DNA of 45,952 nucleotides, taken from IMG/VR virus record IMGVR_UViG_3300029286_000074, positions 1 to 45,952 of that record, one strand, 5' to 3'. The position numbers were made by a program, and so were the translations under genes. Positions 16,170 through 29,775 of this stretch are shown one piece after another (within the stretch, counting starts at the first letter, position 1; the number at the start of each line of letters is the position of its first letter). The DNA comes from a virus. The notes under the pieces were generated by a model. The model was not told where the DNA came from and ran no database searches. It saw nothing but the letters and a program-made list of their open reading frames with translations.

Positions 16170-16243
16170 GGGGATGGATACAAACAATAGTAGAGTTTTG
16201 TCTTGTATTAACCCACATGGACAGTCCAAAGTCTGTCCAAATA
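16170..16243 (+). ncRNA. Twister-like ribozyme, copy 1
   Basis: P2 GGG (16170-16172)/CCC (16212-16214); GA then TGG (16175-16177); P1 ATACAA/TTGTAT with a long loop; TAA with predicted cleavage 16209^16210; T2 bases AC; P4 GGACAG/CTGTCC with loop TCCAAAGT. T1 pairs TGG with CCA, a variant unique to this copy and fully compensated. No downstream GTGC partner. Confidence 0.75.
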
Positions 16244-16264
16244 CCGGGTAAAGGAGAAAGAAAG

Positions 16265-16588
16265 ATGGAAGCCATGATGGAATATTCGTGGGAAATAAAA
16301 GTAGATTATCGGATCAAAGAGCTTGTTCGTGACATTATTCCAATCAGTCATCAGCAAACAGCCGATCAGCGGGAGGCAAACGATTTGATTTACAAAGAAT
16401 TGATTGCCTTGATGAGCAATTATCTTCCTGTCGGAACAATTGAGCGACATGTTTTTGACCATTATGTCAGAGTTCCGTGGGTGTATAATTGCTATTCGAT
16501 CTCAACTCTAATTCCTGAACCACCCTTTTGGTTTGAGTACAGAGAATTTACCGGAACTATTTATCTGAAATGCATTGTTAATCCGTAA
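16265..16588 (+). CDS. Unknown 107-residue protein
   Basis: ATG 16265 follows AAAGGAGAAAG, the standard ribosome binding site behind these ribozymes. The product is mixed helical and strand, rich in Tyr/Trp near the end (RVPWVYNCYSIS, PPFWFEYREFTG). No family recognised. It is the first gene of ribozyme-bounded segment 1. Confidence 0.7.
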   Translation: MEAMMEYSWEIKVDYRIKELVRDIIPISHQQTADQREANDLIYKELIALMSNYLPVGTIERHVFDHYVRVPWVYNCYSISTLIPEPPFWFEYREFTGTIYLKCIVNP

Positions 16589-16621
16589 AAACACTAACCA
16601 CTAACAGGAGAGGAGAGAGAA

Positions 16622-16978
16622 ATGAATATCGTAATTTGTTTTGAAGACGAAATGGATGAGGAAACATTGGAACTTCTTTATGAAGACCTTGAGGAAACAG
16701 GTTTTCAGCTCGTCATGGAATTTGATGATGGAGCCAAGATTGTTGCAAATGTTCCCGACGAAGTTCCTGACCCCGACTATCCCGGAACTGTTGAAGATTA
16801 CTGGGAGGCAGTCATCAATGAATCAATGTTCCCGTGCTGTGATGGTGGGAAAACCGAAACGGATTGTGGTGTTTACTGTGTCAAAACTTTGAAGCAATTC
16901 CGGGAAGATGATCAGAAATTGAATCCCACCCTTGAAGGTGGGGGCTACGGTGACATTCTTTCTGACATCGAAGATTAA
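16622..16978 (+). CDS. Unknown acidic 118-residue protein
   Basis: Ribosome binding site CAGGAGAGGAGAG precedes the ATG. The product is strongly acidic (ICFEDEMDEETLELLYEDLEE; VPDEVPDPDYP), with four Cys near FPCCDGG...CGVYC. DNA-mimic and metal-binding roles are both possible from composition; neither is supported by a motif. Confidence 0.75.
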   Translation: MNIVICFEDEMDEETLELLYEDLEETGFQLVMEFDDGAKIVANVPDEVPDPDYPGTVEDYWEAVINESMFPCCDGGKTETDCGVYCVKTLKQFREDDQKLNPTLEGGGYGDILSDIED

Positions 16979-16999
16979 CCAAAAGGGGAAGGAGAGAAT

Positions 17000-17083
17000 A
17001 TGAAAAAGACAGAGTGGTTTACCGTTATGATGGCAATCTTCACAATCATTGTCATGACCATCTGGATGACTGTCAATTTGTAA
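17000..17083 (+). CDS. Small single-pass membrane peptide, 27 residues
   Basis: ATG follows GGGGAAGGAGAGAAT. The peptide is MKKTEW followed by one hydrophobic helix (FTVMMAIFTIIVMTIWM). Its TAA stop runs straight into ribozyme copy 2. It is a phage-type small membrane protein of unknown function. Confidence 0.6.
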   Translation: MKKTEWFTVMMAIFTIIVMTIWMTVNL

Positions 17084-17084
17084 T

Positions 17085-17143
17085 GCAGACGGCTGCCGCA
17101 ATGCGGCAGTAATGCACATTTCCCGTCCGAAGTCGGGAAAAAT
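17085..17143 (+). ncRNA. Twister-like ribozyme, copy 2
   Basis: P2 GCA/TGC; GA then CGG (17090-17092); P1 CTGCCGC/GCGGCAG; TAA with predicted cleavage 17110^17111; AC; P4 TCCCG/CGGGA with loop TCCGAAGT. T1 CGG/CCG is compensated. Downstream ATGTGC can pair with GCACAT after cleavage. Confidence 0.85.
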
Positions 17144-17164
17144 ATATGTGCTGGGAGAGAGAAA

Positions 17165-17338
17165 ATGGAAAAGAGAGAAGTACAGATTGCCGGAACATGG
17201 CGGGAATCTGCACAAACTTTCGGGAAAAATGTAAAGATTTCCCGAGAGAATGCAGATAAACGGTTAACCGAAATCATCAAGCAATTCACCCGGAAAAATA
17301 CTGTGATGTCCACTTTTGTTCTTGCCGACGAAAACTAA
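17165..17338 (+). CDS. Unknown 57-residue protein
   Basis: ATG follows GGGAGAGAAA. Basic and short (starts MEKREVQIAGTWRESAQ); no Cys, no membrane segment. It is supported by the ribosome binding site and tight packing behind ribozyme copy 2. No family recognised. Confidence 0.6.
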   Translation: MEKREVQIAGTWRESAQTFGKNVKISRENADKRLTEIIKQFTRKNTVMSTFVLADEN

Positions 17339-17360
17339 ACCCGAGAAAAGGAGAAAAACC

Positions 17361-17510
17361 ATGTTAGAATATGTTATCGGATTTTTAGTGATATTCGGAA
17401 CTTACTGCATTATGGACAAAATTTGTGATCTTGTCATCAAAAAAGGTTGGAAAAAGCTGTCATTGGGTAGTCTGAAAAAATCCAGACAGGTCATTAGGAT
17501 TTCAAAGTAA
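17361..17510 (+). CDS. Small membrane protein, 49 residues
   Basis: ATG 17361 follows AAAGGAGAAAAACC; an upstream in-frame ATG at 17316 lies inside the previous gene. One N-terminal hydrophobic helix (YVIGFLVIFGTYCIM) is followed by a Lys/Arg-rich cytoplasmic tail. Unknown function. Confidence 0.65.
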   Translation: MLEYVIGFLVIFGTYCIMDKICDLVIKKGWKKLSLGSLKKSRQVIRISK

Positions 17511-17534
17511 AATCCGCACCCAAAGGAGAAAAAC

Positions 17535-17696
17535 ATGGCAAAGAAGAAAGAGCAATCCATCACTAAGGAACAGCAAGAAGTCTTTGATTTTGACTGGAGC
17601 AAAGTAAAAGCTCCAACGGCTGATGATTTTCGGAAACTGAGATTGGATCCTGCATTCAAGAAAATGAACAAACGGAATAAGAAATTGCATCCGTAA
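17535..17696 (+). CDS. Unknown basic 53-residue protein
   Basis: ATG follows AAAGGAGAAAAAC. Starts MAKKKEQSITKEQQE and ends in a Lys/Asn-rich tail (KKMNKRNKKLHP). No recognised family. The stop lies five bases before ribozyme copy 3. Confidence 0.6.
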   Translation: MAKKKEQSITKEQQEVFDFDWSKVKAPTADDFRKLRLDPAFKKMNKRNKKLHP

Positions 17697-17701
17697 TACA
17701 T

Positions 17702-17838
17702 GCAGAGGGTAAGGATTTGAAATACACACCCTACCGATTAGGGGTTCAAGATTCTACGGATACCTTGTATAATATATCGGGTTACTAAAATTTCAAATCC
17801 TTATAATGCACACTCACCGTCCCAAGTCGGTGAAAATA
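17702..17838 (+). ncRNA. Twister-like ribozyme, copy 3, with enlarged P1
   Basis: P2 GCA/TGC; GA then GGG (17707-17709); P1 is a 14-bp stem (TAAGGATTTGAAAT with its complement ending 17803) capped by a 66-base insert (17724-17789) instead of a short loop; TAA with predicted cleavage 17804^17805; P4 TCACCG/CGGTGA with loop TCCCAAGT. Downstream TGTGCA can pair with TGCACA. The insert contains its own small stem and a TATAAT. Confidence 0.8.
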
Positions 17839-17869
17839 ACTGTGCATAAAAGGAAAAAGGAGAAAGAAA

Positions 17870-18589
17870 ATGAGTAAAAATGGAAAGAAGGTAGCGGAAG
17901 TGAAGAAACTGACACCGGTTAAGAAAGTCATTGTTGCCAGTTCCGAACTTACGGATGCAGAGCTTACGGGAAATGCTTCAACGACACCAGAAAATCTGAC
18001 TCCCGTTGTCAATGAGTCAGAACCTGTTGTGGAAGCAGCAGAAACGTCGGCTGCCGCAGTTGAGCCTGAGGTTGCTGACAAAGTCGAAGAGCCGAAAATT
18101 GTTCGTCCCGATATGCCCGCAGATTTCTGTATGGATCCGGCAGATTGGGACAGCAATCGTTTGTTCTTGGATAAATCCAACAACAACTGCAAGACCTGTG
18201 AGAAAGATATGCCTGAATGCTTCGGTGTTTGTCTTGCTCGTCAGAATTTCCTTTCAGGTCCTGGCAAAGTTGTGAAAGCTAAGAAGGACAAAGGAGCGAA
18301 AGCTGTAAGGACCAACAAGAACGGAAAAACTCCTCAGTCAATTGTCATTGACGGTTACATCAAAGCGGAAATGACTGTTGCCAATATGATCATTGAGTTG
18401 GCAAAAGCTGATTTCGGCGGAGAAACTGAACCGGGTCTGAAAGCTTCAAAGGGTCGTATTTCTTCACATCTCAATGCCATTGAGAAAGGAACATACTGTC
18501 GAGCGGCAGAAATGCTTCCCTTTGTGGCATACTTGAAAGCAGTACCGGTTGCTGCTGCTGTTGCAGAACCCGCTGTTGCTACCAATTAA
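17870..18589 (+). CDS. Unknown protein with Cys motif and Ala/Glu/Pro linker
   Basis: 239 residues. A Lys-rich N-terminus and an acidic Ala/Val/Pro/Glu-rich linker (about 20-75) lead to a segment with CKTCEKDMPECFGVC (about 104-118), a probable metal site. Then comes a basic stretch (KAKKDKGAKAVRTNKNGK) and a C-terminal domain (about 160-220) with a helical pattern like a winged-helix regulator. The layout resembles the protein at 42474-43085. The ribosome binding site is AAAGGAGAAAG behind ribozyme copy 3. Its codon use is somewhat more GC-rich than its neighbours, which may reflect high expression. Confidence 0.75.
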   Translation: MSKNGKKVAEVKKLTPVKKVIVASSELTDAELTGNASTTPENLTPVVNESEPVVEAAETSAAAVEPEVADKVEEPKIVRPDMPADFCMDPADWDSNRLFLDKSNNNCKTCEKDMPECFGVCLARQNFLSGPGKVVKAKKDKGAKAVRTNKNGKTPQSIVIDGYIKAEMTVANMIIELAKADFGGETEPGLKASKGRISSHLNAIEKGTYCRAAEMLPFVAYLKAVPVAAAVAEPAVATN

Positions 18590-18622
18590 GTCAGAAATTC
18601 TTAACACCTGAAAGGAGGATGT

Positions 18623-18634
18623 ATGCGTAGGTAA
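18623..18634 (+). pseudogene. Three-codon ORF with strong RBS (gene scar)
   Basis: AAAGGAGGATGT is followed by ATG CGT AGG TAA, that is, Met-Arg-Arg and stop. An intact initiation site with no gene behind it looks like the remains of a deleted gene between the 17870 gene and ribozyme copy 4, or a minimal leader. Confidence 0.4.
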
Positions 18635-18655
18635 TCAGAATTAAAAAATCCCAGG

Positions 18656-18726
18656 GCAGAGGGCAAGAGACTGTCGGGAGATAGGCTCTTGTAATGCACA
18701 TCTCAGGTCCCAAGTCCTGAGAAAAT
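18656..18726 (+). ncRNA. Twister-like ribozyme, copy 4
   Basis: P2 GCA/TGC; GA then GGG (18661-18663); P1 CAAGAG/CTCTTG with a larger loop; TAA with predicted cleavage 18692^18693; AC; P4 CTCAGG/CCTGAG with loop TCCCAAGT. Downstream ATGTGC (ending in TAAGGAG) pairs with GCACAT over six bases. Confidence 0.82.
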
Positions 18727-18750
18727 CTATGTGCTAAGGAGAAAGAAAGT

Positions 18751-18924
18751 ATGCCACACTTCAGTCAATGTTGTCCGGGAAGAGATGATTACATCTGCCA
18801 AGTTTGCGGTAAAATCAAATGCAGCGGTTGTCAAGATTCTGTATGGCGTCCTGACATCACGGGAAACAAATCAGCGGGAAATGTTTGTCCTTCTTGTTTG
18901 GAAAAACACAACAAAAAGGCTTAG
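18751..18924 (+). CDS. Small zinc-ribbon-like protein, 57 residues
   Basis: ATG follows AAGGAGAAAGAAAGT. Eight Cys occur in pairs: CC at 7-8, CQVC (16-19), CSGC (24-27), CPSC (46-49). This is a two-site treble-clef or zinc-ribbon pattern. It probably binds zinc and perhaps nucleic acid or protein; no specific family. An overlapping ORF in another frame (from 18731) is a shadow, with no ribosome binding site. Confidence 0.7.
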   Translation: MPHFSQCCPGRDDYICQVCGKIKCSGCQDSVWRPDITGNKSAGNVCPSCLEKHNKKA

Positions 18925-18948
18925 CAATTCCTGAGAAAGGAAAGAAAG

Positions 18949-19185
18949 ATGAAAAGCAACAATTCCCAAATTAAAAGCAGTAATTCCATTACTTCCAAAA
19001 CTTGGAAAATAATCAATGATTTATTTGATGACTTCCAAGAAGATAAGGAAGACTACTCTACCTCGGCATTCAAAGAAGAAATTGAAGATTGTTTTTCCAA
19101 CTATGTTCAAGAAACACTAAATGTCACTTTTACCGAAAAAGAACATGAAGAAATTACCGAAACAGCGTTACAGTGGTTTCACTGA
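18949..19185 (+). CDS. Unknown acidic helical protein, possibly frameshifted
   Basis: 78 residues from ATG after GAAAGGAAAG. Polar Ser/Asn start, then acidic helices (DLFDDFQEDKEDYS, EHEEITETALQWFH). Immediately after the stop, the +1 frame stays open to 19306 and its product repeats the pattern (TEVVEMALFWF against EITETALQWF). The real protein may therefore be longer through +1 shift, or the gene may be broken. Confidence 0.6.
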   Translation: MKSNNSQIKSSNSITSKTWKIINDLFDDFQEDKEDYSTSAFKEEIEDCFSNYVQETLNVTFTEKEHEEITETALQWFH

Positions 19186-19306
19186 CTGGTTGGTAGAAAA
19201 AGGAATCAATCTTACTCATGATGACGGTACGGAAGTTGTAGAAATGGCTTTGTTTTGGTTTTCAGAAAACATGAATAGCCGTTACCATAATAACGAAAAC
19301 AATTAA
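19164..19306 (+). CDS. Continuation in +1 frame of the 18949 gene
   Basis: About 45 codons in the frame +1 to the preceding gene, read through TDWLVEKGINLTHDDG and ending MNSRYHNNENN. It has no ribosome binding site or good start of its own (an ATG at 19121 lies deep in the previous gene). It is either the C-terminal part reached by a frameshift at TGG TTT CAC TGA, or a fragment separated by a one-base mutation. Confidence 0.4.
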
Positions 19307-19341
19307 GACTCAGAAATAGGAGAAAGAGAAAAGGAGGATTT

Positions 19342-19458
19342 ATGTGTGAGCATAAAAAACCGAGAGCAATGGTTAGCACACTTTGCCAGAAATGCAAAGC
19401 AGCCAACAACTTTGATCGGAAACAGATTGAACGCCTCCGAAAGATGGTGAAAAAATGA
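19342..19458 (+). CDS. Small Cys/His protein, 38 residues
   Basis: ATG follows AAAAGGAGGATTT. C2, H4, C15 and C18 (MCEHKK...LCQKCKA) form a likely single zinc site, followed by a basic helix (RKQIERLRKMVKK). It overlaps the next gene as ATGA. Function unknown. Confidence 0.6.
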   Translation: MCEHKKPRAMVSTLCQKCKAANNFDRKQIERLRKMVKK

Positions 19459-19760
19459 AAATGCCCATATTCTATCAGAAAAATCCATCATTCAAGGCTA
19501 ATTACGATTTGAGTATTCCAGATATTCTTCTCGGAAAAACTCACCGCAAAGTAGCAAGCCTCGAAGCTGACAGCTTGGATGAAGCATACGAGAAAATGCA
19601 AGGTGAAGTTTGGTCACCTAACGGAGAAAAACGTAATCTCATTAGTATGCTAGGTTTGCACCACACAAGCATGAGTGTCGGAGATGTTGCTATGTGTTTC
19701 CTTCCTGACGAAACGAAATTCTTTCAATGTGACCAAACAGGTTGGAAAGTAGTTTATTAA
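19455..19760 (+). CDS. Unknown 101-residue protein, YodL-like motif
   Basis: Starts in an ATGA overlap. The C-terminal part HTSMSVGDVAMCFL...QCDQTGWKVV resembles the conserved end of YodL-like small proteins common on plasmids and phages, with a Ser-x-Ser-x-x-Asp-Val core. Function of that family is not established. Followed directly by ribozyme copy 5, whose first bases abut the TAA stop. Confidence 0.75.
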   Translation: MKMPIFYQKNPSFKANYDLSIPDILLGKTHRKVASLEADSLDEAYEKMQGEVWSPNGEKRNLISMLGLHHTSMSVGDVAMCFLPDETKFFQCDQTGWKVVY

Positions 19761-19761
19761 T

Positions 19762-19820
19762 GCAGAGGGCACCGCAGAAATGCGGTGTAATGCACAAACA
19801 GGTCCCAAGTCCTGTTAAAT
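19762..19820 (+). ncRNA. Twister-like ribozyme, copy 5
   Basis: P2 GCA/TGC; GA then GGG (19767-19769); P1 CACCGC/GCGGTG around AGAAAT; TAA with predicted cleavage 19788^19789; AC; P4 ACAGG/CCTGT with loop TCCCAAGT, then TAAAT. Downstream TGTGC pairs with GCACA. Confidence 0.87.
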
Positions 19821-19845
19821 CATGTGCTAAAAAGGAGAAAGAGAG

Positions 19846-20676
19846 ATGAAAGAAAAGGCATTGGTAATAGAATCGGAATGGTCCTGCAAGTTTAATGTAG
19901 GGTTGATCAAAATCCTGGATCAGAAGTTTCGTGGTTCTGACTTCTTCAAAGAGAACCATGATTTCAGAGCATCAAATGGGTTGCTCATTGGATCTTGGTC
20001 ATCTCCTGAAATTAGTTATGATGGAACATACTTCTATGTCAGAGGTAATCACGAAGATACCGATGATACAACGGTTATGACAGATAAGTACGACCTCTTT
20101 TGCAAAATCATCAACGCCATTGCTGAATACAACGAAGCGATGGAGAAGAAACCGGATTACCTCTTTCTTCACAAGAAATTGTGGATGAAACTCGCTGAAT
20201 CTGGCCGTGAGGACAAAGCAGAAGCTTGTAGGGAAGTGATGAAAGAAGAAGGTGTTGAGAAACCCGCTCAATACTGTTTCTTGTGTGAAGAGGCAGGATT
20301 TGATTCTATCCGAGTTGGGTTTGATTCTATCCGAGATGGGTTTGTTAGCGGCACTCCTGATGTTTGTAAGAACTGTAAAGGTTATTGGGGTTATGATGTC
20401 GAAACGTGCTGTGAAAAGGGGTCTTACTATCAAATGTGGGATAACGAATCCGACATAGCTCTCAAGAAGGCTCTTGCATTGAGGATTGCTTTCAATGTGA
20501 AACCAGAACATGCGGCTGACTTCTACGAAGTGACCGATGATGAGCTGTACATCACCCAGACAGAGGGCAAGATTCCAGGGATTAAATCATACCGATCCCG
20601 AACAGGCAAAGGACTGAGGGAATCGAAAGAGGCTATTGAAGCAGCAATGGCAAACTACAACAATTACAAGAGGTAG
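19846..20676 (+). CDS. Unknown 276-residue protein with Cys pairs and repeat
   Basis: ATG follows AAAAAGGAGAAAGAG. N-terminal alpha/beta region about 1-130; middle CFLCEEAG (about 144) and CKNCKGYWG (about 174), a likely zinc site; the loop between holds a seven-residue tandem duplication (GFDSIRV/GFDSIRD). The C-terminus GIKSYRSRTGKGLRESKEAIEAA resembles the ribosomal L7/L12 C-terminal motif, which is often reused in phage proteins. No function assigned. Confidence 0.75.
   Translation: MKEKALVIESEWSCKFNVGLIKILDQKFRGSDFFKENHDFRASNGLLIGSWSSPEISYDGTYFYVRGNHEDTDDTTVMTDKYDLFCKIINAIAEYNEAMEKKPDYLFLHKKLWMKLAESGREDKAEACREVMKEEGVEKPAQYCFLCEEAGFDSIRVGFDSIRDGFVSGTPDVCKNCKGYWGYDVETCCEKGSYYQMWDNESDIALKKALALRIAFNVKPEHAADFYEVTDDELYITQTEGKIPGIKSYRSRTGKGLRESKEAIEAAMANYNNYKR
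20299..20340 (+). repeat. 21-bp tandem duplication within a gene
   Basis: Two copies of TTTGATTCTATCCGAG plus five bases, one mismatch (TTGGG against ATGGG). It keeps the frame and adds seven residues between two Cys pairs. It looks recent. Confidence 0.9.
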
Positions 20677-20684
20677 CAGAGGTA

Positions 20685-20747
20685 GCAGAGAGCACCGACG
20701 AAAGTCGGTGTAATGCACTGGCAGCAGGTCTCAAGTCCTGTGCAAAA
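20685..20747 (+). ncRNA. Twister-like ribozyme, copy 6
   Basis: P2 GCA/TGC; GA then GAG (20690-20692); P1 CACCGAC/GTCGGTG with GAAA loop; TAA with predicted cleavage 20711^20712; AC; P4 CAGG/CCTG with loop TCTCAAGT. T1 GAG/CTC is compensated. Downstream GTGC directly follows P4. The upstream bases GGTAGCAGA are tandemly duplicated across the stop codon. Confidence 0.85.
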
Positions 20748-20762
20748 GAAAGGAGAAAGAGA

Positions 20763-21131
20763 ATGGAAAAAAGAATGGCTGATGCTTTAGATCGGCACAT
20801 CACCGGGAATTACGGGGAAGATCAGTTTAAGAATGAAAAGCCTTTAGAATTCAAAATGGGAGATTCATTCATGTGGGGAGGTGAAAGACATATTCTTGCA
20901 AGAACCATTAACTATCGGGACGAGAACTTGTTTCACTTCCAACTGATTAGTGCAAAAACAGGAAATCGGTATTCCAATAGTGTGGTCACTCACAATTACG
21001 GAATTGATGATCTTATCATCATCAATGAAGATGAAATGATCTACTTACTGGAGATGGACATCAATGTTGATGCCGATGAAATTGAGCGTTATTTTGCTTC
21101 ACATAAGAAAGGTCCTCAATGGAAGGAGTAG
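20763..21131 (+). CDS. Unknown 122-residue protein
   Basis: ATG follows AAAGGAGAAAGAGA. Mixed fold with a GDSFMWGGERHILARTI strand region and an acidic end (EDEMIYLLEMDINVDADEIER). No family recognised. Confidence 0.72.
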   Translation: MEKRMADALDRHITGNYGEDQFKNEKPLEFKMGDSFMWGGERHILARTINYRDENLFHFQLISAKTGNRYSNSVVTHNYGIDDLIIINEDEMIYLLEMDINVDADEIERYFASHKKGPQWKE

Positions 21132-21134
21132 AAA

Positions 21135-21314
21135 ATGCCGAATGATTTCATTAAGATGCGGAACGATATGATGGATGCTGAAGCTTATCTGGCTTTGAAT
21201 CCGAAACCAATAAGTCAATCATCCATTGACAGAGAATGTGCCCGCAGAGATTCAGCAGATCATTACCACAGGCAGAAAGTTTTAGAGATGTTAGATGGGC
21301 ACGATTACGATTAG
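21135..21314 (+). CDS. Unknown 59-residue protein
   Basis: ATG lies three bases past the previous stop with GGAAGGAG upstream. Helical, Met/Asp-rich; ends in LEMLDGHDYD. The TAG stop overlaps ribozyme copy 7 by its last base. Confidence 0.6.
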   Translation: MPNDFIKMRNDMMDAEAYLALNPKPISQSSIDRECARRDSADHYHRQKVLEMLDGHDYD

Positions 21315-21375
21315 CAGAGAGCAGCCGAGAAATCGGCTGTAATGCACATTCTCGGTCTCAAGTCCGAGAAAATTA
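21314..21375 (+). ncRNA. Twister-like ribozyme, copy 7
   Basis: P2 GCA/TGC; GA then GAG (21319-21321); P1 CAGCCGA/TCGGCTG with GAAA loop; TAA with predicted cleavage 21340^21341; AC; P4 CTCGG/CCGAG with loop TCTCAAGT. T1 GAG/CTC. Downstream TGCAT pairs with ATGCA. Confidence 0.87.
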
Positions 21376-21395
21376 TGCATAAAGGAGAAAGAAAG

Positions 21396-22178
21396 ATGAC
21401 AAACGAAGCCAGGGACAACATTATTTCCAAAATCATGAAACTCATGGAACTCGGAAATGCTGAAAAAAACAGTAATCCTCATGAGCGGGAAGCTGCTACG
21501 AGAATGGCAGCAAAAATGATGGCAGACTACTCCATCGACTTTGCCCAGTTGCGAGACGGCAAAAAGAATCCCGATGCTTTTGTCTCTATGTCCGTTGACG
21601 GATCAGAAGATCAAAAGGTAGATTTTGAAGCATCGTTGGCTTTTCATATTGCCAAAGCTTTTGATTGCCAAATGATCAATTCTTTTGTCAAAACATTTAC
21701 TGGAGAACGTCGATATGGGGCATGGGAAATTCATTTCATAGGCACAAAGAACGATCTGGAGATTGCCGTGTTCTTCTTCAAGTATCTTCGGAGAAGTCTT
21801 TATGCCTTGTCACAGAAGAACGTGACCAAAGAGACTGTCATGCCTACTTACACAAGAAGTGGACAACGGAAAATTGATTTGAAAAATGCTCGTAGGAATT
21901 ACTGTTTTGGAATGACAAAAGTTATCGGGGAACGTCTTCTGGAGCTGTATCAGAAACGAGAAGAATTCATTCCGTCCGACTGTAAAGCATTGATGGTTGT
22001 CAAGAAAGATGGACTGGAAAAGAAATTCAGAGAATTGTTTCCTGATGCCAGAAAGGGAAGAGTTACATCATTAAAAGGGGATACATCAGCTTACCATAGA
22101 GGAGCTGAAGCAGGTCACAAAATCAATTTGTCTCGACCCATCGGCAACAATGGTCAAGCATCAGCACAAATCGGTTAA
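21396..22178 (+). CDS. DUF2786-like protein
   Basis: 260 residues; ATG 21396 follows AAAGGAGAAAG. The N-terminus (IISKIMKLMELGNAEKNSNPHEREAATRMAAKMMADYSIDFAQL, about 8-52) matches the DUF2786 pattern found in phage and plasmid proteins. The central part (about 75-150) is alpha/beta, and a basic C-terminal region follows (LEKKFRELFPDARKGRVTS...SAYHRGAEAGHKI). The role of the family is unknown. TAA stop abuts ribozyme copy 8. Confidence 0.8.
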   Translation: MTNEARDNIISKIMKLMELGNAEKNSNPHEREAATRMAAKMMADYSIDFAQLRDGKKNPDAFVSMSVDGSEDQKVDFEASLAFHIAKAFDCQMINSFVKTFTGERRYGAWEIHFIGTKNDLEIAVFFFKYLRRSLYALSQKNVTKETVMPTYTRSGQRKIDLKNARRNYCFGMTKVIGERLLELYQKREEFIPSDCKALMVVKKDGLEKKFRELFPDARKGRVTSLKGDTSAYHRGAEAGHKINLSRPIGNNGQASAQIG

Positions 22179-22179
22179 T

Positions 22180-22242
22180 GCAGAGAGCAGCGGCAGAAAT
22201 GCCGCTGTAATGCACATATCTGGTCTCAAGTCCAGATAAATC
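22180..22242 (+). ncRNA. Twister-like ribozyme, copy 8
   Basis: P2 GCA/TGC; GA then GAG (22185-22187); P1 CAGCGGC/GCCGCTG; TAA with predicted cleavage 22208^22209; AC; P4 TATCTGG/CCAGATA with loop TCTCAAGT. T1 GAG/CTC. Downstream ATGTGC pairs with GCACAT over six bases. Confidence 0.87.
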
Positions 22243-24068: not shown

Positions 24069-24264
24069 CATCAATAACCTGCTTGATAGGATGAATGACA
24101 CTTGTGCAGAATTAGAAACAGAACTTCCTGCTCTAAAGCAAAGGATAGAGCTTATTCAGACTATTCTTTCATCAAGGAACAATCTTAGGAACAGAATTGA
24201 TTCCATTCATGTTGAAATGGACACCCTTCTTGATGCAGTAGGAAAGTTATCAAATTATGAATAA
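24052..24264 (+). CDS. Coiled-coil protein, 70 residues
   Basis: ATG follows AAAGGAGGAAGAAC. Nearly the whole protein reads as heptads (INNLLDRMNDTCAELETELP, then LKQRIELIQTILSS, IDSIHVEMDTLLDAVGKL). Likely an oligomer. No function known. Its stop abuts ribozyme copy 10. Confidence 0.7.
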   Translation: MPVETDINNLLDRMNDTCAELETELPALKQRIELIQTILSSRNNLRNRIDSIHVEMDTLLDAVGKLSNYE

Positions 24265-24326
24265 GTGGAGGGCACCGTCGAAAGACGGTGTAACACTACA
24301 AGTCGGTCCCAAGTCCGACAAATAAA
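24265..24326 (+). ncRNA. Twister-like ribozyme, copy 10
   Basis: P2 GTG/CAC (a three-base covariation against the GCA/TGC copies); GA then GGG (24270-24272); P1 CACCGTC/GACGGTG with GAAA loop; TAA with predicted cleavage 24291^24292; then T-AC; P4 GTCGG/CCGAC with loop TCCCAAGT and AAATAAA. No GTGC downstream. Confidence 0.88.
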
Positions 24327-24345
24327 AAGAAAAGGAGAAAGAGAA

Positions 24346-24720
24346 ATGACATTTGAGGAATTTAAAGAATTGGAAAAGATTTGTAAGGATGCTTGGAAGG
24401 AACTTGCAAAGACAGGGAGTTATTGGAAACCAGCAACACTCGATCCGTTCATAAACGATTGTCCCGCTTGTGATATTTCAGCGAATGCAGGTAATACTCG
24501 TTTTCATGATTGCCGATTGTGTCCTGTTGATAGATGGAGAAAAGCTGCACAAGAACACGAGCATTCAGAACTTGCCATTTGTCAAGATATTGGACGTAAA
24601 CCTTTGTATGCTACATGGATAAGTGATTTGTCATCCCCGGAAGATATGAAAAAAGCAGCGAAAACAATCTCCCGACTGAAGTGGACATATCTTCCGGAAT
24701 ATGAAAAAATCAAGAAATAA
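24346..24720 (+). CDS. Unknown 124-residue Cys-containing protein
   Basis: ATG 24346 follows AAAAGGAGAAAGAGA; the open frame upstream runs through the ribozyme and is not coding. Cys/His pattern DCPACDIS...FHDCRLCPVDRW (about 40-66) suggests a zinc site. Helical ends. TAA stop abuts ribozyme copy 11. Confidence 0.72.
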   Translation: MTFEEFKELEKICKDAWKELAKTGSYWKPATLDPFINDCPACDISANAGNTRFHDCRLCPVDRWRKAAQEHEHSELAICQDIGRKPLYATWISDLSSPEDMKKAAKTISRLKWTYLPEYEKIKK

Positions 24721-24721
24721 T

Positions 24722-24786
24722 GCAGAAGGCACGGAGCTGTTGCTCCGTGTAATGCACAAGTCAGGTCCTAAGTCCTGACAAATAAA
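24722..24786 (+). ncRNA. Twister-like ribozyme, copy 11
   Basis: P2 GCA/TGC; GA then AGG (24727-24729); P1 CACGGAGC/GCTCCGTG; TAA with predicted cleavage 24750^24751; AC; P4 GTCAGG/CCTGAC with loop TCCTAAGT. T1 AGG/CCT, unique to this copy and compensated. No GTGC downstream. Confidence 0.87.
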
Positions 24787-24805
24787 AAGAAAAGGAGAAA
24801 GAAAG

Positions 24806-25381
24806 ATGATTGTAACACATTATGGTGCCACTCTGGATTCAGAACTTCCAACAACAGGAGTATTTCAAAATAATCATATTGATTGGTTAGGAGAAGTGCT
24901 TGGAGATGGAGACACGGTTGATTTGAGTTATGAGGAAGCCCTTGACGAGTATGTCGGGGAAAGACTCAGAAACATCCAAGTCTTTCTTGACAATTATGTT
25001 CATGGGGATGACATAATTCCTATCATAACCCTTCTCAATGAAATTGAAGAACCTAACTTTGATTGTCATGAGTCTTTGACTTCTTTGGTAGGATTCAAAA
25101 AATCTGAAAACAGAGAAGAATGTTGGTATTGGTTATCTAATTTACAATATGGATTTCTTCCAAATAATTTAGCAGAATATTCCGCTATTGTTGGTGAAAT
25201 CTATACACAGGTAATCAAGTCAGAATGGGTATTGAAAGGAAGTCTTTGTAGTCCTTGTTACCCTGGTCAAGTTGATTCTGATTCTACGGGTAAATTCATC
25301 GGGTATTCTTTTCCACCTGATGCTTTTGAAAAAGAAAATCCTCTTTACAGCAAGATCAGCAAATGGGAGGATAAGTCATGA
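24806..25381 (+). CDS. Unknown 191-residue protein
   Basis: ATG follows AAAAGGAGAAAGAAAG. Acidic, Trp/Tyr-containing (HIDWLGEVLGDGDTVDL; REECWYWLSNLQYGF), with CSPCYPGQ near 160. No family recognised. ATGA overlap with the next gene. Confidence 0.72.
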   Translation: MIVTHYGATLDSELPTTGVFQNNHIDWLGEVLGDGDTVDLSYEEALDEYVGERLRNIQVFLDNYVHGDDIIPIITLLNEIEEPNFDCHESLTSLVGFKKSENREECWYWLSNLQYGFLPNNLAEYSAIVGEIYTQVIKSEWVLKGSLCSPCYPGQVDSDSTGKFIGYSFPPDAFEKENPLYSKISKWEDKS

Positions 25382-25632
25382 AAAATACCAGAACAGAGCA
25401 TAAAGATTTAAGAACCTTTTTGAAAAAGCAAGGGGGAAATTGTAGTGCCACTTACACAAGCATAAGCAAAACCTTTTACAGAGTTAAATTGTGGGACATT
25501 TCATCCACTGCAAAAATAAAGAAAAAGGTTATTGAAGATTATGCTTTATCCTTAGGAGCTTACGAAGTATCTTGGGGAAAAGGATGCTGTTGTTGTGGAA
25601 GTGAAAGTTTTATTGCTAAATTTCCTAAATAG
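25378..25632 (+). CDS. Unknown 84-residue basic protein with CCCC
   Basis: From the ATGA overlap; GGGAGGATAAGTC upstream. Lys-rich, with four consecutive Cys near the end (KGCCCCGSESF), a possible metal site together with Cys22. Its TAG stop forms the first bases of ribozyme copy 12. Confidence 0.65.
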   Translation: MKNTRTEHKDLRTFLKKQGGNCSATYTSISKTFYRVKLWDISSTAKIKKKVIEDYALSLGAYEVSWGKGCCCCGSESFIAKFPK

Positions 25633-25692
25633 TGGAGGGCACCGTCGAAAGACGGTGTAACACACAAACCAGTCCCAAGTCTGGTTAAAGAA
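25632..25692 (+). ncRNA. Twister-like ribozyme, copy 12
   Basis: P2 GTG/CAC; GA then GGG (25637-25639); P1 CACCGTC/GACGGTG with GAAA loop; TAA with predicted cleavage 25658^25659; AC; P4 AACCAG/CTGGTT with loop TCCCAAGT. Nearly identical to copy 14 except one P1 base pair (T-A against A-T). Confidence 0.88.
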
Positions 25693-25704
25693 AGGAGAAA
25701 GAGT

Positions 25705-25899
25705 ATGGGAGAATTGACTGTATTTGAAAAGCATCAATTAAAGATTGCCCGGGACACCTTGAAGATGAACAGTGTATTTGCCAACATCATGAGTGGTCCC
25801 ACAAAAGAAGAAGCAAAGAAAATCATTGCTTACCTTGAAAACAAAATTCTGCATACTGCCATTTATGGCAAAGGAGAGAAAAATGAGCAAAATCAATAA
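25705..25899 (+). CDS. Unknown 64-residue helical protein
   Basis: ATG follows AAAGGAGAAAGAGT. Helical (LTVFEKHQLKIARDTLKMNS; KEEAKKIIAYLENKI). Its end overlaps the next start by 17 bases. No family recognised. Confidence 0.65.
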   Translation: MGELTVFEKHQLKIARDTLKMNSVFANIMSGPTKEEAKKIIAYLENKILHTAIYGKGEKNEQNQ

Positions 25900-26311
25900 T
25901 ATGTCCAAAGAAGAAATCTACCGATTGGAGCGTCATTCGGAAACTCAACTGCTAACTGAAGGTTATTCCTTAGAGGAAATCACAGAGATTTTTGAACGAG
26001 CAAGTGCCTTCCTTGATAACGACATGAGGGAGACTAAAGAGATGGAAGAAGTTGAAAAACTGGTTGAAACTCTATCCCGTTTCGTCAATAGAGGGGGTTC
26101 CAGCAAAAGCAAGAAAGAATATTTTGTCCGAGCTGTTCGTAGAGAACACCGAACCCTTCAACAACTTCTGTTTAGTCTATTCATGGAATGTATCAAAGAC
26201 TGGGCTGAAACAAAAGAAGGTCATTACGACTTGCGGAATGAAGCTACTGTAAAAACCAGTAAAAAGATCATGACGGCACTTCCTGATTACTATGGAGTGC
26301 CTTTCATCTAA
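25883..26311 (+). CDS. Unknown 142-residue helical protein
   Basis: ATG 25883 follows AAAGGAGAGAAAA. Long charged helices (EEIYRLERHSETQLL, EMEEVEKLVETLSRF), a basic Ser/Lys loop (GGSSKSKKEYF), and a Tyr-rich end. Possibly multimeric; no family recognised. Confidence 0.7.
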   Translation: MSKINNMSKEEIYRLERHSETQLLTEGYSLEEITEIFERASAFLDNDMRETKEMEEVEKLVETLSRFVNRGGSSKSKKEYFVRAVRREHRTLQQLLFSLFMECIKDWAETKEGHYDLRNEATVKTSKKIMTALPDYYGVPFI

Positions 26312-26321
26312 AGGAGAAAGT

Positions 26322-26513
26322 ATGAAAAGAATTGTAGAAGAATGGAGTACATCGGTGATATTAGAAGGGAGTGAACCAGAAAGAATTTGCAGACTCGGAC
26401 AAGGTAGCAAATGTTGTGCTTTTCTCTGTGTAAGCCCAATAGGTTTTCAATGCCTGCGAATGGATTACCCTGCTAATGGTCCTATTTTTACAAGACTTGA
26501 AAAAGCACAATGA
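26322..26513 (+). CDS. Unknown 63-residue protein
   Basis: ATG 26322 follows AAAGGAGAAAGT. Strand-rich, with a Cys cluster (ICRLGQGSKCCAFLC, then GFQCLRM). No family recognised. Confidence 0.65.
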   Translation: MKRIVEEWSTSVILEGSEPERICRLGQGSKCCAFLCVSPIGFQCLRMDYPANGPIFTRLEKAQ

Positions 26514-26562
26514 ATGCTAAAGGGGAAGGTGGTTGGGAAGGTTGTGCGTGGGAGGGAAAGAT

Positions 26563-26823
26563 ATGAAAGTAGGAGATAGAGTAAGGATTTACATCTACAA
26601 TCCTGGTAAGTGGGTGCAGACATCAGTTGAATGTTTGAATGGAAAAACGGGAATTATCAAAGAGGTCAAAGAACCTAATTGGTTTTCCGACAATAACTTT
26701 CTTGTTGAATTTGACACACCTGCAAAAACGTGGCATAGTTATCAAACACCCTGGAGTGCTGCTTGGTTTTGTGAAGCAGATTTACTGCACACTGCATTCC
26801 AAGAAAAGGAGGAAGAAATATGA
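26563..26823 (+). CDS. Small KOW/SH3-like barrel protein, 86 residues
   Basis: ATG 26563 follows GGGAGGGAAAGAT. MKVGDRVRIYIYNPGKWVQ...NGKTGIIKEVKE...NFLVEFDTP is the strand pattern of KOW/SH3-type small barrels, which often bind RNA or DNA. Assignment is by pattern only. ATGA overlap with the next gene. Confidence 0.65.
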   Translation: MKVGDRVRIYIYNPGKWVQTSVECLNGKTGIIKEVKEPNWFSDNNFLVEFDTPAKTWHSYQTPWSAAWFCEADLLHTAFQEKEEEI

Positions 26824-26978
26824 TGAATCATGTTGATATTCTTTGGGAAGACCTTTCCGACAGTGGAAAAAAGAAAATCTCAGAAGCAATCGGTATCCCA
26901 ATTGACCACGTACCTAATGAAACAAACTGGGACATATGCCCTGTCGTTACTTTTGATTACTATGAAACTACAAATTAG
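26820..26978 (+). CDS. Unknown acidic 52-residue protein
   Basis: ATG 26820 (or the next ATG at 26823) with AAAGGAGGAAG upstream. Starts MMNHVDILWEDLSDSG, acidic, aromatic-rich. The TAG stop overlaps ribozyme copy 13 by its last base. Confidence 0.6.
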   Translation: MMNHVDILWEDLSDSGKKKISEAIGIPIDHVPNETNWDICPVVTFDYYETTN

Positions 26979-27038
26979 CAGAGGGCACCGACGAAAGTCG
27001 GTGTAATGCACAGTTTCGGTCCCAAGTCCGAAATAAAT
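26978..27038 (+). ncRNA. Twister-like ribozyme, copy 13
   Basis: P2 GCA/TGC; GA then GGG (26983-26985); P1 CACCGAC/GTCGGTG with GAAA loop; TAA with predicted cleavage 27004^27005; AC; P4 TTTCGG/CCGAAA with loop TCCCAAGT. Downstream GTGCTAA can pair with GCAC, or with upstream TTAGCA to close a P3 stem. Confidence 0.88.
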
Positions 27039-27064
27039 AAAGTGCTAAGAGGAGGAAAGAGAAT

Positions 27065-27385
27065 ATGGATTGGAAAGAAATGCATGAAAGGTCGAAACAG
27101 TTTACTGCTAAAAACAAAGAACTGGATTCACGATTAAAAAGTCTTGCCCAACATACATGGAATGTAATCGGTGGAGATGTTCTTCAATGCAGGCAAGAGT
27201 GTGGTGAAGGTGGTGACATGAAACGGTCAGAAGTAATTGAAACCGTTTGTGATGCCGACTATATGTTTATGCATGGAGATGACCATGAAGCGTATGCTTA
27301 TTTCATTTACCTTCGTGATAATCATCTTAAATATCGGGATAAGATCATGAAAGAAGCTTTCCCGTACAAAACTTACGGATGGTGA
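27065..27385 (+). CDS. Unknown 106-residue protein
   Basis: ATG follows AGAGGAGGAAAGAGAAT. Helical start (WKEMHERSKQFTAKNKELDS), Cys pair CRQEC, His/Asp-rich MHGDDHEAYAYF. No family recognised. Confidence 0.7.
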   Translation: MDWKEMHERSKQFTAKNKELDSRLKSLAQHTWNVIGGDVLQCRQECGEGGDMKRSEVIETVCDADYMFMHGDDHEAYAYFIYLRDNHLKYRDKIMKEAFPYKTYGW

Positions 27386-27388
27386 AAT

Positions 27389-27628
27389 ATGAAAATATTA
27401 GCCGTGTATGATAAGCCCGAATGTGCTGACAGGTACACCATTATTCTTGATGACACACAGCGTGGTAAATTTCATACCTGTCTTAGCGTAGATGATCGAC
27501 CATCTCATCCACAAGGGTTCTCTCAATTCGGAGAATGTATTTGGGGAGACCATCTTGGTAAACAAATCGAATTTTCTGATCTACCAGAAGAGGTGCAAAA
27601 ACATGTCATGTGGAGAATCGAAGAATGA
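27389..27628 (+). CDS. Unknown 79-residue protein
   Basis: Starts three bases after the previous stop. MKILAVYDKPECADRYTIILDD... then FSQFGECIWGDHLGKQIEFSDLPEEVQKHV, a pattern seen in small phage proteins of unknown role where the end LPEEVQ-H-- caps the protein. No function known. Confidence 0.7.
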   Translation: MKILAVYDKPECADRYTIILDDTQRGKFHTCLSVDDRPSHPQGFSQFGECIWGDHLGKQIEFSDLPEEVQKHVMWRIEE

Positions 27629-27849
27629 CAGTTGCATTCTCACAAAAAATGCTAATTGTGCCTCACGACGTTGACGGGTACCGCGTTTTCTCGTCTAAGA
27701 TGATAAACTATTCACACACAAGAAAGAAAGAGGATTTGATACTATGCTCAAAATGGAATGGAACAAGGAGAAGTCAGCAATGGTCTTGCTCACTAAGATC
27801 AAGGAAGTATCCATCACTAACTATTTTACAAGTGGTCCTTACACTGTAA
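27625..27849 (+). CDS. Doubtful 74-residue ORF in an ATGA overlap
   Basis: Starts in an ATGA overlap with GGAG nine bases upstream. The first 40 codons (MTVAFSQKMLIVPHDVDG...) fill an otherwise empty 115-base gap, but the last 35 codons overlap the better gene at 27744 in another frame. Either real with a long overlap or a broken gene. Confidence 0.35.
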   Translation: MTVAFSQKMLIVPHDVDGYRVFSSKMINYSHTRKKEDLILCSKWNGTRRSQQWSCSLRSRKYPSLTILQVVLTL

Positions 27850-28142
27850 AGGGATGGTACAACAAAGAAAATGCTTTCGTATTCGGTGATTATCTAACTT
27901 TGGATGAAGCCAGAGCTTTCGTTTCTACTTTACGTCTGAAAATGAAAATGGCTTGGAACCGACATAAGACGGCAGCAGTAGTTTTAAACCGTGTCAAAGA
28001 GTACACCATCAATCAAAACCTTGATAAGAATTATGATGTAAGAGGTTGGTTCAATAAAGAAAATAACTTCTTATTTGGGGATGATTTTGAAACTCTCCCG
28101 ATGGCACAGCGTTTTCTGGATGACATAAACAGTAGAATATAA
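27744..28142 (+). CDS. Tandemly duplicated small-domain protein
   Basis: 132 residues made of two copies of one about 60-residue domain. Copy 1 (MEWNKEKSAMVLLTKIKEV...VKGWYNKENAFVFGDYL) aligns with copy 2 (MAWNRHKTAAVVLNRVKEY...VRGWFNKENNFLFGDDF). The shared core GW-NKEN-F-FGD is striking. An internal gene duplication is evident; the domain is not recognised. Ribosome binding site AAAGAGGA is rather far (about 10 bases). Confidence 0.75.
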   Translation: MLKMEWNKEKSAMVLLTKIKEVSITNYFTSGPYTVKGWYNKENAFVFGDYLTLDEARAFVSTLRLKMKMAWNRHKTAAVVLNRVKEYTINQNLDKNYDVRGWFNKENNFLFGDDFETLPMAQRFLDDINSRI

Positions 28143-28156
28143 AGTGGAGGTGTTTA

Positions 28157-28315
28157 ATGAACAAAGAAGGTATGTCAATGCGGAGAGTATTGAAAACAAA
28201 GACCTGCTCTATCGGTCATGTAACCGATGTGCAGATTTACGATTTTAAGAATAAATGTTGGATTTATTACTGTGAGAAATGTCAAGAGACAGTTGATGAT
28301 CCTAACGGAATATAA
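28157..28315 (+). CDS. Small zinc-binding-type protein, 52 residues
   Basis: ATG follows GTGGAGGTGTTTA. Cys17, His21, Cys34, Cys39 and Cys42 (CWIYYCEKCQ) suggest one zinc site on a beta hairpin. Function unknown. It ends three bases before ribozyme copy 14. Confidence 0.6.
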   Translation: MNKEGMSMRRVLKTKTCSIGHVTDVQIYDFKNKCWIYYCEKCQETVDDPNGI

Positions 28316-28318
28316 CAT

Positions 28319-28378
28319 GTGGAGGGCACCGACGAAAGTCGGTGTAACACACAAACCAGTCCCAAGTCTGGTTAAAGA
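28319..28378 (+). ncRNA. Twister-like ribozyme, copy 14
   Basis: P2 GTG/CAC; GA then GGG (28324-28326); P1 CACCGAC/GTCGGTG with GAAA loop; TAA with predicted cleavage 28345^28346; AC; P4 AACCAG/CTGGTT with loop TCCCAAGT. Near-copy of copy 12, including the following ribosome binding site. Confidence 0.88.
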
Positions 28379-28390
28379 AAGGAGAAAGAG

Positions 28391-28597
28391 ATGAAAATTT
28401 GTCCTAAATGCAAAAACACGGAATTTACAAAACAAGGATTATGTTCTTATTGTGTTTGGAAAGGGGATGAAGGACCAGGTCTACTGCTTAAGGTAATGAT
28501 TAAGCAAATCAATGAATCGAAAGGAGAAAGAGATGAACCAAAAGTATGCCTACAGTCTCAAAACAGAGAGAATCAGGGAAAAGGATTTTCCATATAA
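28391..28597 (+). CDS. Zinc-ribbon N-terminus protein, 68 residues
   Basis: ATG follows AAAGGAGAAAGAG. CPKC (4-7) and CSYC (18-21) form a classic zinc ribbon. The last 22 codons overlap the RadC-like gene in another frame, so the C-terminal part may be under little selection. Confidence 0.6.
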   Translation: MKICPKCKNTEFTKQGLCSYCVWKGDEGPGLLLKVMIKQINESKGERDEPKVCLQSQNRENQGKGFSI

Positions 28598-28970
28598 TGG
28601 GGAATCTATTACAAGCACTACCGAACTTTTGTCTTTTGTAAAAAAATTACAAGATTCGGATGTGGAAAAAATGGTGTGCATTTACCTTAATGCACAAAAC
28701 AAACTTACAGGAATCCATGTAATTTTAGGATCAGTAAATCAAGCAGTAATATACCCAAGAGAAGTATTCAAACATGCCATTCTGCATAATGCTTCAGCAT
28801 TAATTATGGTTCATAATCATCCATCGGGATGTACTAAACCTTCTGATGCTGATATTCGTTTAACCAGAAGCATTACAGAAACTGGTAAAACATTGGATAT
28901 CACAATGCATGACCATTTAATTATAGCTGATGACAAATTCTTCTCCTTCAGAGAAGAAGGAATGATGTAA
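28533..28970 (+). CDS. RadC-like JAB/MPN domain protein
   Basis: 145 residues; ATG 28533 follows AAAGGAGAAAGAG. The metal motif VHNHPSGCTKPSDAD (about 93-107), and the run to ILGSVNQAVIYPREVFKHAI and HDHLIIADDKFFSFREEG are diagnostic of the RadC family JAMM-type fold. RadC proteins are frequent on mobile elements. The old DNA-repair assignment is doubtful and the substrate is unknown. The N-terminal helix-hairpin-helix part of full-length RadC is missing, as in many phage versions. Confidence 0.88.
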   Translation: MNQKYAYSLKTERIREKDFPYNGESITSTTELLSFVKKLQDSDVEKMVCIYLNAQNKLTGIHVILGSVNQAVIYPREVFKHAILHNASALIMVHNHPSGCTKPSDADIRLTRSITETGKTLDITMHDHLIIADDKFFSFREEGMM

Positions 28971-29036
28971 ATGAGGTTACTAATCATCTTACTATTATTT
29001 TGGTGGTTAGTGGTTTATCAATTTAACTTAATATGA
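28971..29036 (+). CDS. Very small membrane peptide, 21 residues
   Basis: ATG immediately follows the RadC stop. MRLLIILLLFWWLVVYQFNLI is a single transmembrane helix. Supported only by position and composition. Confidence 0.4.
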   Translation: MRLLIILLLFWWLVVYQFNLI

Positions 29037-29049
29037 AAGGAGAAAGAGT

Positions 29050-29337
29050 ATGGGTGCTTATTATGACACAAAAAAAGAAAAGTGGATAGCTGTCAAGAAT
29101 TTGAGGAACATCAAGATCGAAAAGTTTCCTGAATACCGATTCTTTATTCACCGTTGTGCTGATCGTTATATCAGGGTTTTTGGAGTAATTGAAGAATCAT
29201 CTGGGGGTCTTGTCTGCAAAGGTTCATCCAAAGATGATGCTGAAAGGAGAGCAAACGAGATTCTTAAGGGAACAAAGAAGAATTATTTCCGACGAATAAT
29301 CCAAGATGCTCGAAAGAAAAGTAGGAGGCCACTATGA
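29050..29337 (+). CDS. Unknown basic 95-residue protein
   Basis: ATG follows AAAGGAGAAAGAGT. Strand-rich centre (YRFFIHRCADRYIRVFGVI) and a basic C-terminal helix (AERRANEILKGTKKNYFRR, then RKKSRRP), suggesting RNA or DNA binding. ATGA overlap with the next gene. Confidence 0.68.
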   Translation: MGAYYDTKKEKWIAVKNLRNIKIEKFPEYRFFIHRCADRYIRVFGVIEESSGGLVCKGSSKDDAERRANEILKGTKKNYFRRIIQDARKKSRRPL

Positions 29338-29561
29338 TAACGGTCGTGAATGATCCGAAATTGGGAAAGACAAGAGTGATCACCCAACAGTATGAATCTG
29401 GATTGTATGTCGCTCTTTACCGAGAAGGTAAAGCTATTCCTGTTCAATTCGGAACAACAGAAAAAGAGATCAGTTACCATAAAAAACTCAGGAAGAAATT
29501 CCCCTGGATTGTTGAGGAGTCGAGTGAGCTTCCTGAGAAGAAAGGAAAGGTGAAAATATGA
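29334..29561 (+). CDS. Unknown 75-residue protein
   Basis: From an ATGA overlap with AGGAGG upstream. Strand-rich N-terminal half (TRVITQQYESGLYVALYREG), Lys-rich end. ATGA overlap with the next gene. No family recognised. Confidence 0.66.
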   Translation: MITVVNDPKLGKTRVITQQYESGLYVALYREGKAIPVQFGTTEKEISYHKKLRKKFPWIVEESSELPEKKGKVKI

Positions 29562-29713
29562 GATTTTGGATATTTTCATCTGCCATACTCATAGCGAGTG
29601 TTTTGGACACTAACCCGCACGAAAACAGTCAAGTACCGTTGCTTTTGTTTATGGTGTTTGTAGTAGGATTGTTTGGTCTTCTTTTAGACCTTTACGAAAT
29701 TACAAAGGAGTAA
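29558..29713 (+). CDS. Small two-pass membrane protein, 51 residues
   Basis: ATGA overlap; AAAGGAAAGGTGAAAAT upstream. Hydrophobic segments at about 3-17 (FWIFSSAILIASVL) and 26-45 (LLLFMVFVVGLFGLLL). A small inner-membrane protein; the role (exclusion, holin-like) cannot be told. TAA stop abuts ribozyme copy 15. Confidence 0.62.
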   Translation: MRFWIFSSAILIASVLDTNPHENSQVPLLLFMVFVVGLFGLLLDLYEITKE

Positions 29714-29714
29714 T

Positions 29715-29775
29715 GCAGAGGGCACCCCTTCGGGGGTGTAATGCACAAGTACAGTCCCAAGTCTGTGCTAAATAA
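29715..29775 (+). ncRNA. Twister-like ribozyme, copy 15
   Basis: P2 GCA/TGC; GA then GGG (29720-29722); P1 CACCCC/GGGGTG with a TTCG tetraloop in place of GAAA; TAA with predicted cleavage 29739^29740; AC; P4 ACAG/CTGT with loop TCCCAAGT, then GC TAAATAAA. This is the last copy; genes to the right lack them. Confidence 0.86.

Follow-up and report, generated by a model that had tools for sequence, protein, structure and literature searches.

The IMG/VR virus record IMGVR_UViG_3300029286_000074 (45,952 bases, analyzed in its entirety and referred to below as the window) carries fifteen twister ribozymes of type P5, spaced through a single early operon. Every available sequence-level test supports the assignment of all fifteen elements to this family, and they are presumably self-cleaving. 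Their position and strand fit the cutting of one early transcript into approximately 16 messages, and we consider it likely that twister cleavage does split the transcript in this manner, producing short messages that have a hairpin at either end. The window is probably a fragment of a genome, since a related record (G004; we use such handles for individual records) reaches 90.6 kb.

The fifteen copies (R1 to R15; Table 1) are all intergenic and sense to the genes. A search with cmscan at the gathering threshold returned 13 matches to the Rfam family Twister-P5 (RF02684), all on the + strand between positions 17084 and 29766, with scores (47.3–58.5 bits) clearly above the gathering cut-off of 37.6 bits. 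Permissive filters added R3, which scores at the cut-off, and R1, which falls 1.4 bits under it; the same permissive search against 4227 Rfam families matched nothing in the window besides these fifteen copies. A covariance model built from 12 of the window copies and run unfiltered over the whole window recovered the same fifteen, the weakest with an E value of 7e-5 and the next-best match after them with an E value of 0.38. The earlier note on this DNA, which had placed fifteen twister-like elements here and proposed the Rfam models as a check, was therefore correct as to their number and coordinates, since both models find exactly these. It had also described the fold as a twister opened at P3, and in this it was mistaken: the strands come in the order P2′-P1-P2-P4 and the opening of the chain follows P4, so that the permutation is type P5. 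Type P3, in which P4 would lie ahead of P2′, was ruled out because P4 comes after P2 in every copy. A hammerhead core was absent from the window (cmscan, all Rfam), and no hammerhead reached the gathering threshold in ten array loci of its relatives.

The twister class is defined by three essential stems, two pseudoknots and a U-A scissile bond (reviewed in PMC5408937). The window copies match RF02684 from end to end and share with described type-P5 twisters (PMC5408937, PMC10085705) the permutation, the stems P1, P2 and P4, the pseudoknots T1 and T2, the U-A-A and the L4 loop. In an alignment of 150 copies (148 distinct; 26 records) fitted to P1, P2 and P4, so that counts for those helices (T1 and T2 excepted) are biased towards structure, standard pairs filled 98.1% of pair cells versus 70.2% after shuffling, and the three main helices, in P5 order, were paired in 97.8–99.3% of cells with changes on both sides. 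Sliding the partners by 1–3 columns left at most 40% of cells paired, and 18 of the 19 pairs showed changes on both sides. The scissile bond is flanked by almost invariant bases (U in 149/150, then A in 150/150 and A in 150/150), and the L4 loop keeps its AA (146/150 and 150/150) and the following G (140/150).

The two pseudoknots provide an independent test, because covariance models contain none, and it is their covariation together with the model scores that bears out membership of the twister family. All three T1 pairs (L1 with L4) covary on both sides, and the T1 strands of the window copies are complementary in 15/15 cases, with five triplet versions among them (GGG/CCC, GAG/CTC, CGG/CCG, AGG/CCT and TGG/CCA); among 71 copies from the first six phages, T1 strands other than GGG were compensated in 22 of 23 cases. 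The two T2 pairs (98.0% and 97.3% paired) have likewise both changed on both sides. T2 differs from the family consensus in one respect, being often A-U (90 copies, against 46 with GC) where the consensus is G-C.

These observations bear on whether the elements might instead be structured hairpins serving as terminators or as protein or RNase sites, merely resembling a twister. The P1 hairpins do stand straight after stop codons and are stable (approximately −13 kcal/mol in a typical copy and −5.8 kcal/mol in the weakest). However, no U-tract follows them, the catalytic core is complete, both pseudoknots are retained, and none of the terminator-like sites on the + strand overlaps a copy, which led us to reject intrinsic termination in particular. 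We regard a mere resemblance of this kind as scarcely credible.

The placement of the ribozymes follows a simple rule. Most window copies start a few bases from a stop codon, some of them using bases of the stop codon in P2. Across the 26 records, 110/150 copies start within 5 nucleotides (nt) of a stop codon, compared with 4.3% of random positions. Every copy lies on the strand of the genes, and (with simple calls of open reading frames and start codons) a start codon follows in 149/150, at a median of 25 nt past the ribozyme. Fifteen copies in one operon, almost every one of them linked to a stop codon, set the window apart from what is described for RF02684. We found no excess of internal promoters in the operon (43 promoter-like sites versus 48.9 expected).

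The order of the early genes is rearranged among relatives, and the ribozymes tend to travel with the gene that precedes them. For window genes followed by a ribozyme, the ortholog keeps a ribozyme after its stop codon in 10/12 cases, versus 6/36 for other genes (Fisher p 6e-5; protein identity 28–78%), although these cases are partly non-independent and some of the orthologs are weak. No significant association was seen with the start of the downstream gene (5/16 versus 6/32). As the upstream association holds and the downstream one does not, the ribozyme acts like a 3′ part of the upstream gene. At equivalent places in the relatives, P1 stems differ in sequence and keep their pairing.

The same shuffling might be taken to mean that the repeats are short islands of homologous recombination that reassort gene modules, with any ribozyme activity being incidental. 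Gene order varies among relatives, the ribozymes are found where modules meet and stay with the upstream gene, and leaders and cores are alike between copies, all of which would suit such a role at the DNA level. We nevertheless judge it improbable. Selection evidently acts on RNA structure, with 12 distinct P1 sequences among the 15 window copies that are nonetheless paired and with covariation in both T1 and T2; the copies all share the strand of the genes, with a start codon next in nearly every case; and arrays recur in phages that share only a few proteins, or none at all, with the window phage.

That recurrence was found by scanning IMG/VR with patterns and scoring the results with RF02684; as the patterns were fixed, the count of arrays is a minimum. 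At least 16 further virus records carry at least five copies each (range 5–20), with G039 and G043, which are 99.8% identical over 23.5 kb, counted as one. The largest array, of 20 copies, is that of G004, and it spans the join of the record, since the ends of G004 repeat 55 bp. We compared the proteins of the window phage with those of G039/G043, G007, G004, G006, G001 and G002. G039, G007, G004 and G006 have proteins in common with the window phage, including a terminase (G007, G004, G006 and G043) and a helicase, primase and DnaB (G039, G007 and G004). G001 (locus L056), with nine copies, shares zero proteins with it, and G002 (locus L051), with 15 copies, gives just six weak protein matches, so that at least these two array phages appear unrelated to the window phage.

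Searches beyond IMG/VR, among them those for a cultured phage that carries an array, gave little. The large terminase of the window had no tblastn match among 50,697 phage records, nor did the frame at 22277–23173 (a query starting one codon inside its gene, whose ATG is at 22274) have any in INPHARED, and blastn of the helicase-region DNA, one ribozyme and four other arrays against INPHARED returned nothing useful. One weak INPHARED match, Pseudomonas phage HRDY3, was set aside, being without a twister-P5 match. The sole GTDB contig that fits the pattern belongs to an Oscillospiraceae metagenome-assembled genome (L133; G012 contig C4, 6500–8900) and has two twister-P5 copies approximately 530 bp apart; any twister-P5 copy was present in 3/291 genomes of its class.

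Cleavage at the predicted sites would yield internal segments of 459–1394 nt carrying one to four genes each. The upstream products are predicted to terminate in the P1 hairpin, the 3′ end being blunt in nearly all fifteen cases and any overhang small, and the downstream leaders are 45–68 nt long. In 9/15 of these leaders, the fold of minimum energy has the new 5′ end (AAUGCAC, or AACCCAC in R1) paired with a strand directly before the Shine-Dalgarno sequence, closing P4 into a terminal stem-loop. This additional strand downstream, which is complementary to that of P2/T2 and present in some of the lineages studied here, is a further difference from described members of RF02684. In R1, P2, its partner and the re-pairing strand are altered together, and one copy each in G001 and G004 shows a matched change of the same kind.

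Complements of at least 5 bp were present in 23/137 distinct copies, versus 2 in a parallel-strand control and a mean of 13.4 (maximum 21 in 2000) when leaders were swapped between copies. By record, the strand is found in 10/15 copies in the window (G000), 9/9 in G001 (where the leaders are almost uniform), 5/5 in G006 and 5/6 in G037. The pooled counts are the fair measure, since it was the window that first drew attention to the strand, ahead of the test, and these four records were chosen after it.

We believe these features are best explained as follows. The type-P5 twisters would self-cleave the early polycistronic transcript at the U^A step in J1-2, probably during its synthesis. The upstream mRNA would then have a blunt P1 hairpin as its end, just past the stop codon, with a 2′,3′-cyclic phosphate expected, and the downstream leader would begin with 5′-OH AA and hold the P4 hairpin and an exposed Shine-Dalgarno sequence. 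In most window copies the strand before the Shine-Dalgarno sequence could pair with the freed P2/T2 strand and close the P4 stem-loop, which would displace P2, hinder reversal of the cut and shield the 5′ end. Because transcription completes the ribozyme before it reaches the re-pairing strand, cleavage would come first and re-pairing after it. The outcome would be a set of independent, end-protected messages from one promoter, akin to a natural, repeated version of the RiboJ insulator. The predicted accessibility of the Shine-Dalgarno sequence is about equal in cut and uncut RNA, so the gain would lie in the ends and in independence rather than in unmasking; a translational on-switch worked by cleavage is, for the same reason, unsupported.

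That similar accessibility is one of several points that weigh against division of the transcript into protected messages. Cleavage in vivo, its timing, protection of the ends and the effect on expression are things that we infer. Twisters tested at the bench cleave at rates of 1–10 per min (PMC5408937), so cleavage during transcription is not certain. Copies occur at just 15/50 gene junctions in the gene list used, where many of the ribozyme-free junctions overlap or are very short. Only some lineages have the re-pairing strand, which is nearly absent from G004 and G007; it therefore cannot be essential and is a lineage-specific addition. Finally, most dinucleotide shuffles of individual leaders were not significant; the leaders are too short for such shuffles to be informative, and the parallel-strand and swap controls were used in their place.

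The ribozymes could also be active and serve mainly to lower or time expression, the separated messages decaying quickly and independently. New 5′ and 3′ ends and the loss of linkage can shorten the life of an mRNA. The ribozymes split the operon into units of one to four genes, and exposure of the Shine-Dalgarno sequence does not depend on the cut; both would suit an effect on the dosage of early proteins. Set against this, both ends of each product are predicted to be hairpins, and the strand that closes the new 5′ end in several lineages looks protective; we therefore hold an effect chiefly on dosage to be rather unlikely, and favor the production of separate, end-protected messages.

The internal fragments have one further property, in that each starts with the 3′ half of one twister and finishes with the 5′ half of the following one, P2 and T1 being mostly the same. 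Since such a fragment would also bear a 5′-OH and a 2′,3′-cyclic phosphate, its ends might be joined, either by reassembly of a twister core or by an RtcB-like ligase, giving circular early mRNAs. We think this quite doubtful; if it were true, the versions of T1 and P2 and the re-pairing strand would set which ends rejoin.

The closest precedent that we found concerns another ribozyme. Tandem hammerheads around prophage genes were proposed in 2011 to cut long phage transcripts, and in the passages of that report on which we draw, three arrays on polycistronic RNAs of approximately 2 kb were active in vitro and one in E. coli (PMC3088659). Those elements resemble the window copies in being self-cleaving ribozymes placed around single phage genes or short blocks with the same proposed role, and differ in ribozyme class and in that the tested arrays were short (one is called triple); neither a stop-codon rule nor a re-pairing strand appears in the same passages. 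A paper of 2023 (PMC10085705) summarizes an enrichment of hammerhead and twister ribozymes in the neighborhood of Mu-like phage genes and of one another, and gives the reason as unknown. The enrichment shares with our case the clustering of twisters and their association with phages, but is a statistical association only. In the RiboJ insulator, the cut leaves a 5′ hairpin and raises the mRNA level (PMC6206723). There too a ribozyme stands before a ribosome-binding site and its cut leaves a standard hairpin leader (predicted, in our case), but RiboJ is engineered, single and sTRSV-derived, whereas the window elements are natural, repeated twisters that also form the 3′ end of the upstream gene.

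The earlier note had supposed the array to be undescribed. This stands insofar as we found no array of this size, and no stop-codon rule, in a literature search that did not cover the primary 2014 twister paper and its 2015 follow-up; it does not stand insofar as 16 more viral records have arrays and the idea of cutting has been published for hammerheads. The published precedent is thus the tandem hammerheads by prophage genes. Arrays of self-cutting RNAs look like a recurring, poorly studied form of phage mRNA processing. The clustering of twisters and hammerheads near phage genes has been called unexplained (PMC10085705), and the present case follows clear rules: many copies per operon, on one strand, at stop codons, with the same genes despite shuffling, and in phages whose proteins are mostly or wholly different. 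This suggests that some phages process early mRNA with built-in ribozymes. The array supplies defined cleavage sites to map and natural designs for insulating the genes of an operon, and the re-pairing strand, provided that it is real, is nature's own means of making a ribozyme cut one-way.

Table 1. Twister-P5 copies in the window and the operon that contains them. Cleavage sites (U^A) and re-pairing strands are predicted; scores are against RF02684.
Feature	Position	Strand	Cleavage after	Score (E value)	P2	T1	Re-pairing strand	Remarks
R1	16170..16236	+	16209	36.2 bits (5e-4)	GGG/CCC	TGG/CCA	GGGU 16246-16249	re-pairing from leader fold
R2	17084..17137	+	17110	47.3 bits		CGG/CCG	AUGUGC 17146-17151
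R3	17701..17831	+	17804	37.7 bits (2e-4)			UGUGCAU 17841-17847	enlarged P1 hairpin, 95 nt, predicted fold −26.8 kcal/mol
R4	18655..18719	+	18692	47.9 bits			AUGUGC 18729-18734
R5	19761..19814	+	19788	58.5 bits			UGUGC 19823-19827
R6	20684..20740	+	20711	50.6 bits		GAG/CTC
R7	21313..21367	+	21340	52.8 bits		GAG/CTC	UGCAU 21376-21380
R8	22179..22235	+	22208	57.7 bits		GAG/CTC	AUGUGC 22245-22250
R9	23404..23460	+	23434	52.5 bits			AGUGC 23469-23473
R10	24264..24318	+	24291	55.7 bits	GUG/CAC			P2 altered
R11	24721..24777	+	24750	51.3 bits		AGG/CCT
R12	25632..25684	+	25658	52.3 bits	GUG/CAC
R13	26977..27031	+	27004	58.4 bits			GUGC 27042-27045
R14	28319..28371	+	28345	52.6 bits	GUG/CAC
R15	29714..29766	+	29739	53.0 bits
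Early operon	15359..33063	+						~50 tightly packed small genes (open reading frame and Shine-Dalgarno calls, PHROGs, Pfam)

Several copies have individual features. A reading of R1 as degenerate was rejected, its GATGG being matched by the loop TCCAAAG and its P2 strand GGG by CCC, and G039 has a copy at the equivalent place. The enlarged P1 of R3 (17715–17797) carries an internal structured insert, and several of the other arrays have enlarged P1 regions too (e.g. G002 30706–30802, G037 21259–21356 and G036 32553–32645). R4 is the sole window copy far from the upstream stop codon (65 nt), and the ortholog of its upstream gene is also followed by a ribozyme in G039, G007 and G004. The intervening segment (18590–18654, from the stop of 17870–18589 to R4) contains a strong Shine-Dalgarno sequence and very short open frames (three codons), such as might be left of a small gene that had lost everything but its start and stop. 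At the 5′ edge of R6 (20670–20690), GTAGCAGAG is directly repeated and provides the stop codon of the upstream gene, an arrangement that resembles a small tandem duplication of this edge. The ortholog of the gene downstream of R8 is also preceded by a ribozyme in G039, G007 and G004, and a ribozyme follows the ortholog of the gene upstream of R9 in G039 (78% identity) and weak matches to that gene in G007 (28%) and G004 (34%). Orthologs of both neighbors of R13 have a ribozyme in G039, where the two genes are apart. The core of R14 is almost identical to that of R12.

The genes of the early operon are mostly unnamed, the exceptions being a DUF2786/DUF7168 protein and a RadC-like JAB protein. 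Downstream of the array operon lie genes for a helicase (33095), a primase (34520), a replication initiation protein and DnaB (37306), as assigned by PHROGs, and the terminase (9758–11725) is on the opposite strand. Two overlapping frames within the operon (18949–19185 and 19121–19306) read like one frameshifted small gene. The divergent structural and early operons are separated by approximately 3 kb of sparsely coding DNA (12306–15284), part of which (14919–15016) is 86% identical to G039; this DNA may represent the early promoter region or else an RNA.

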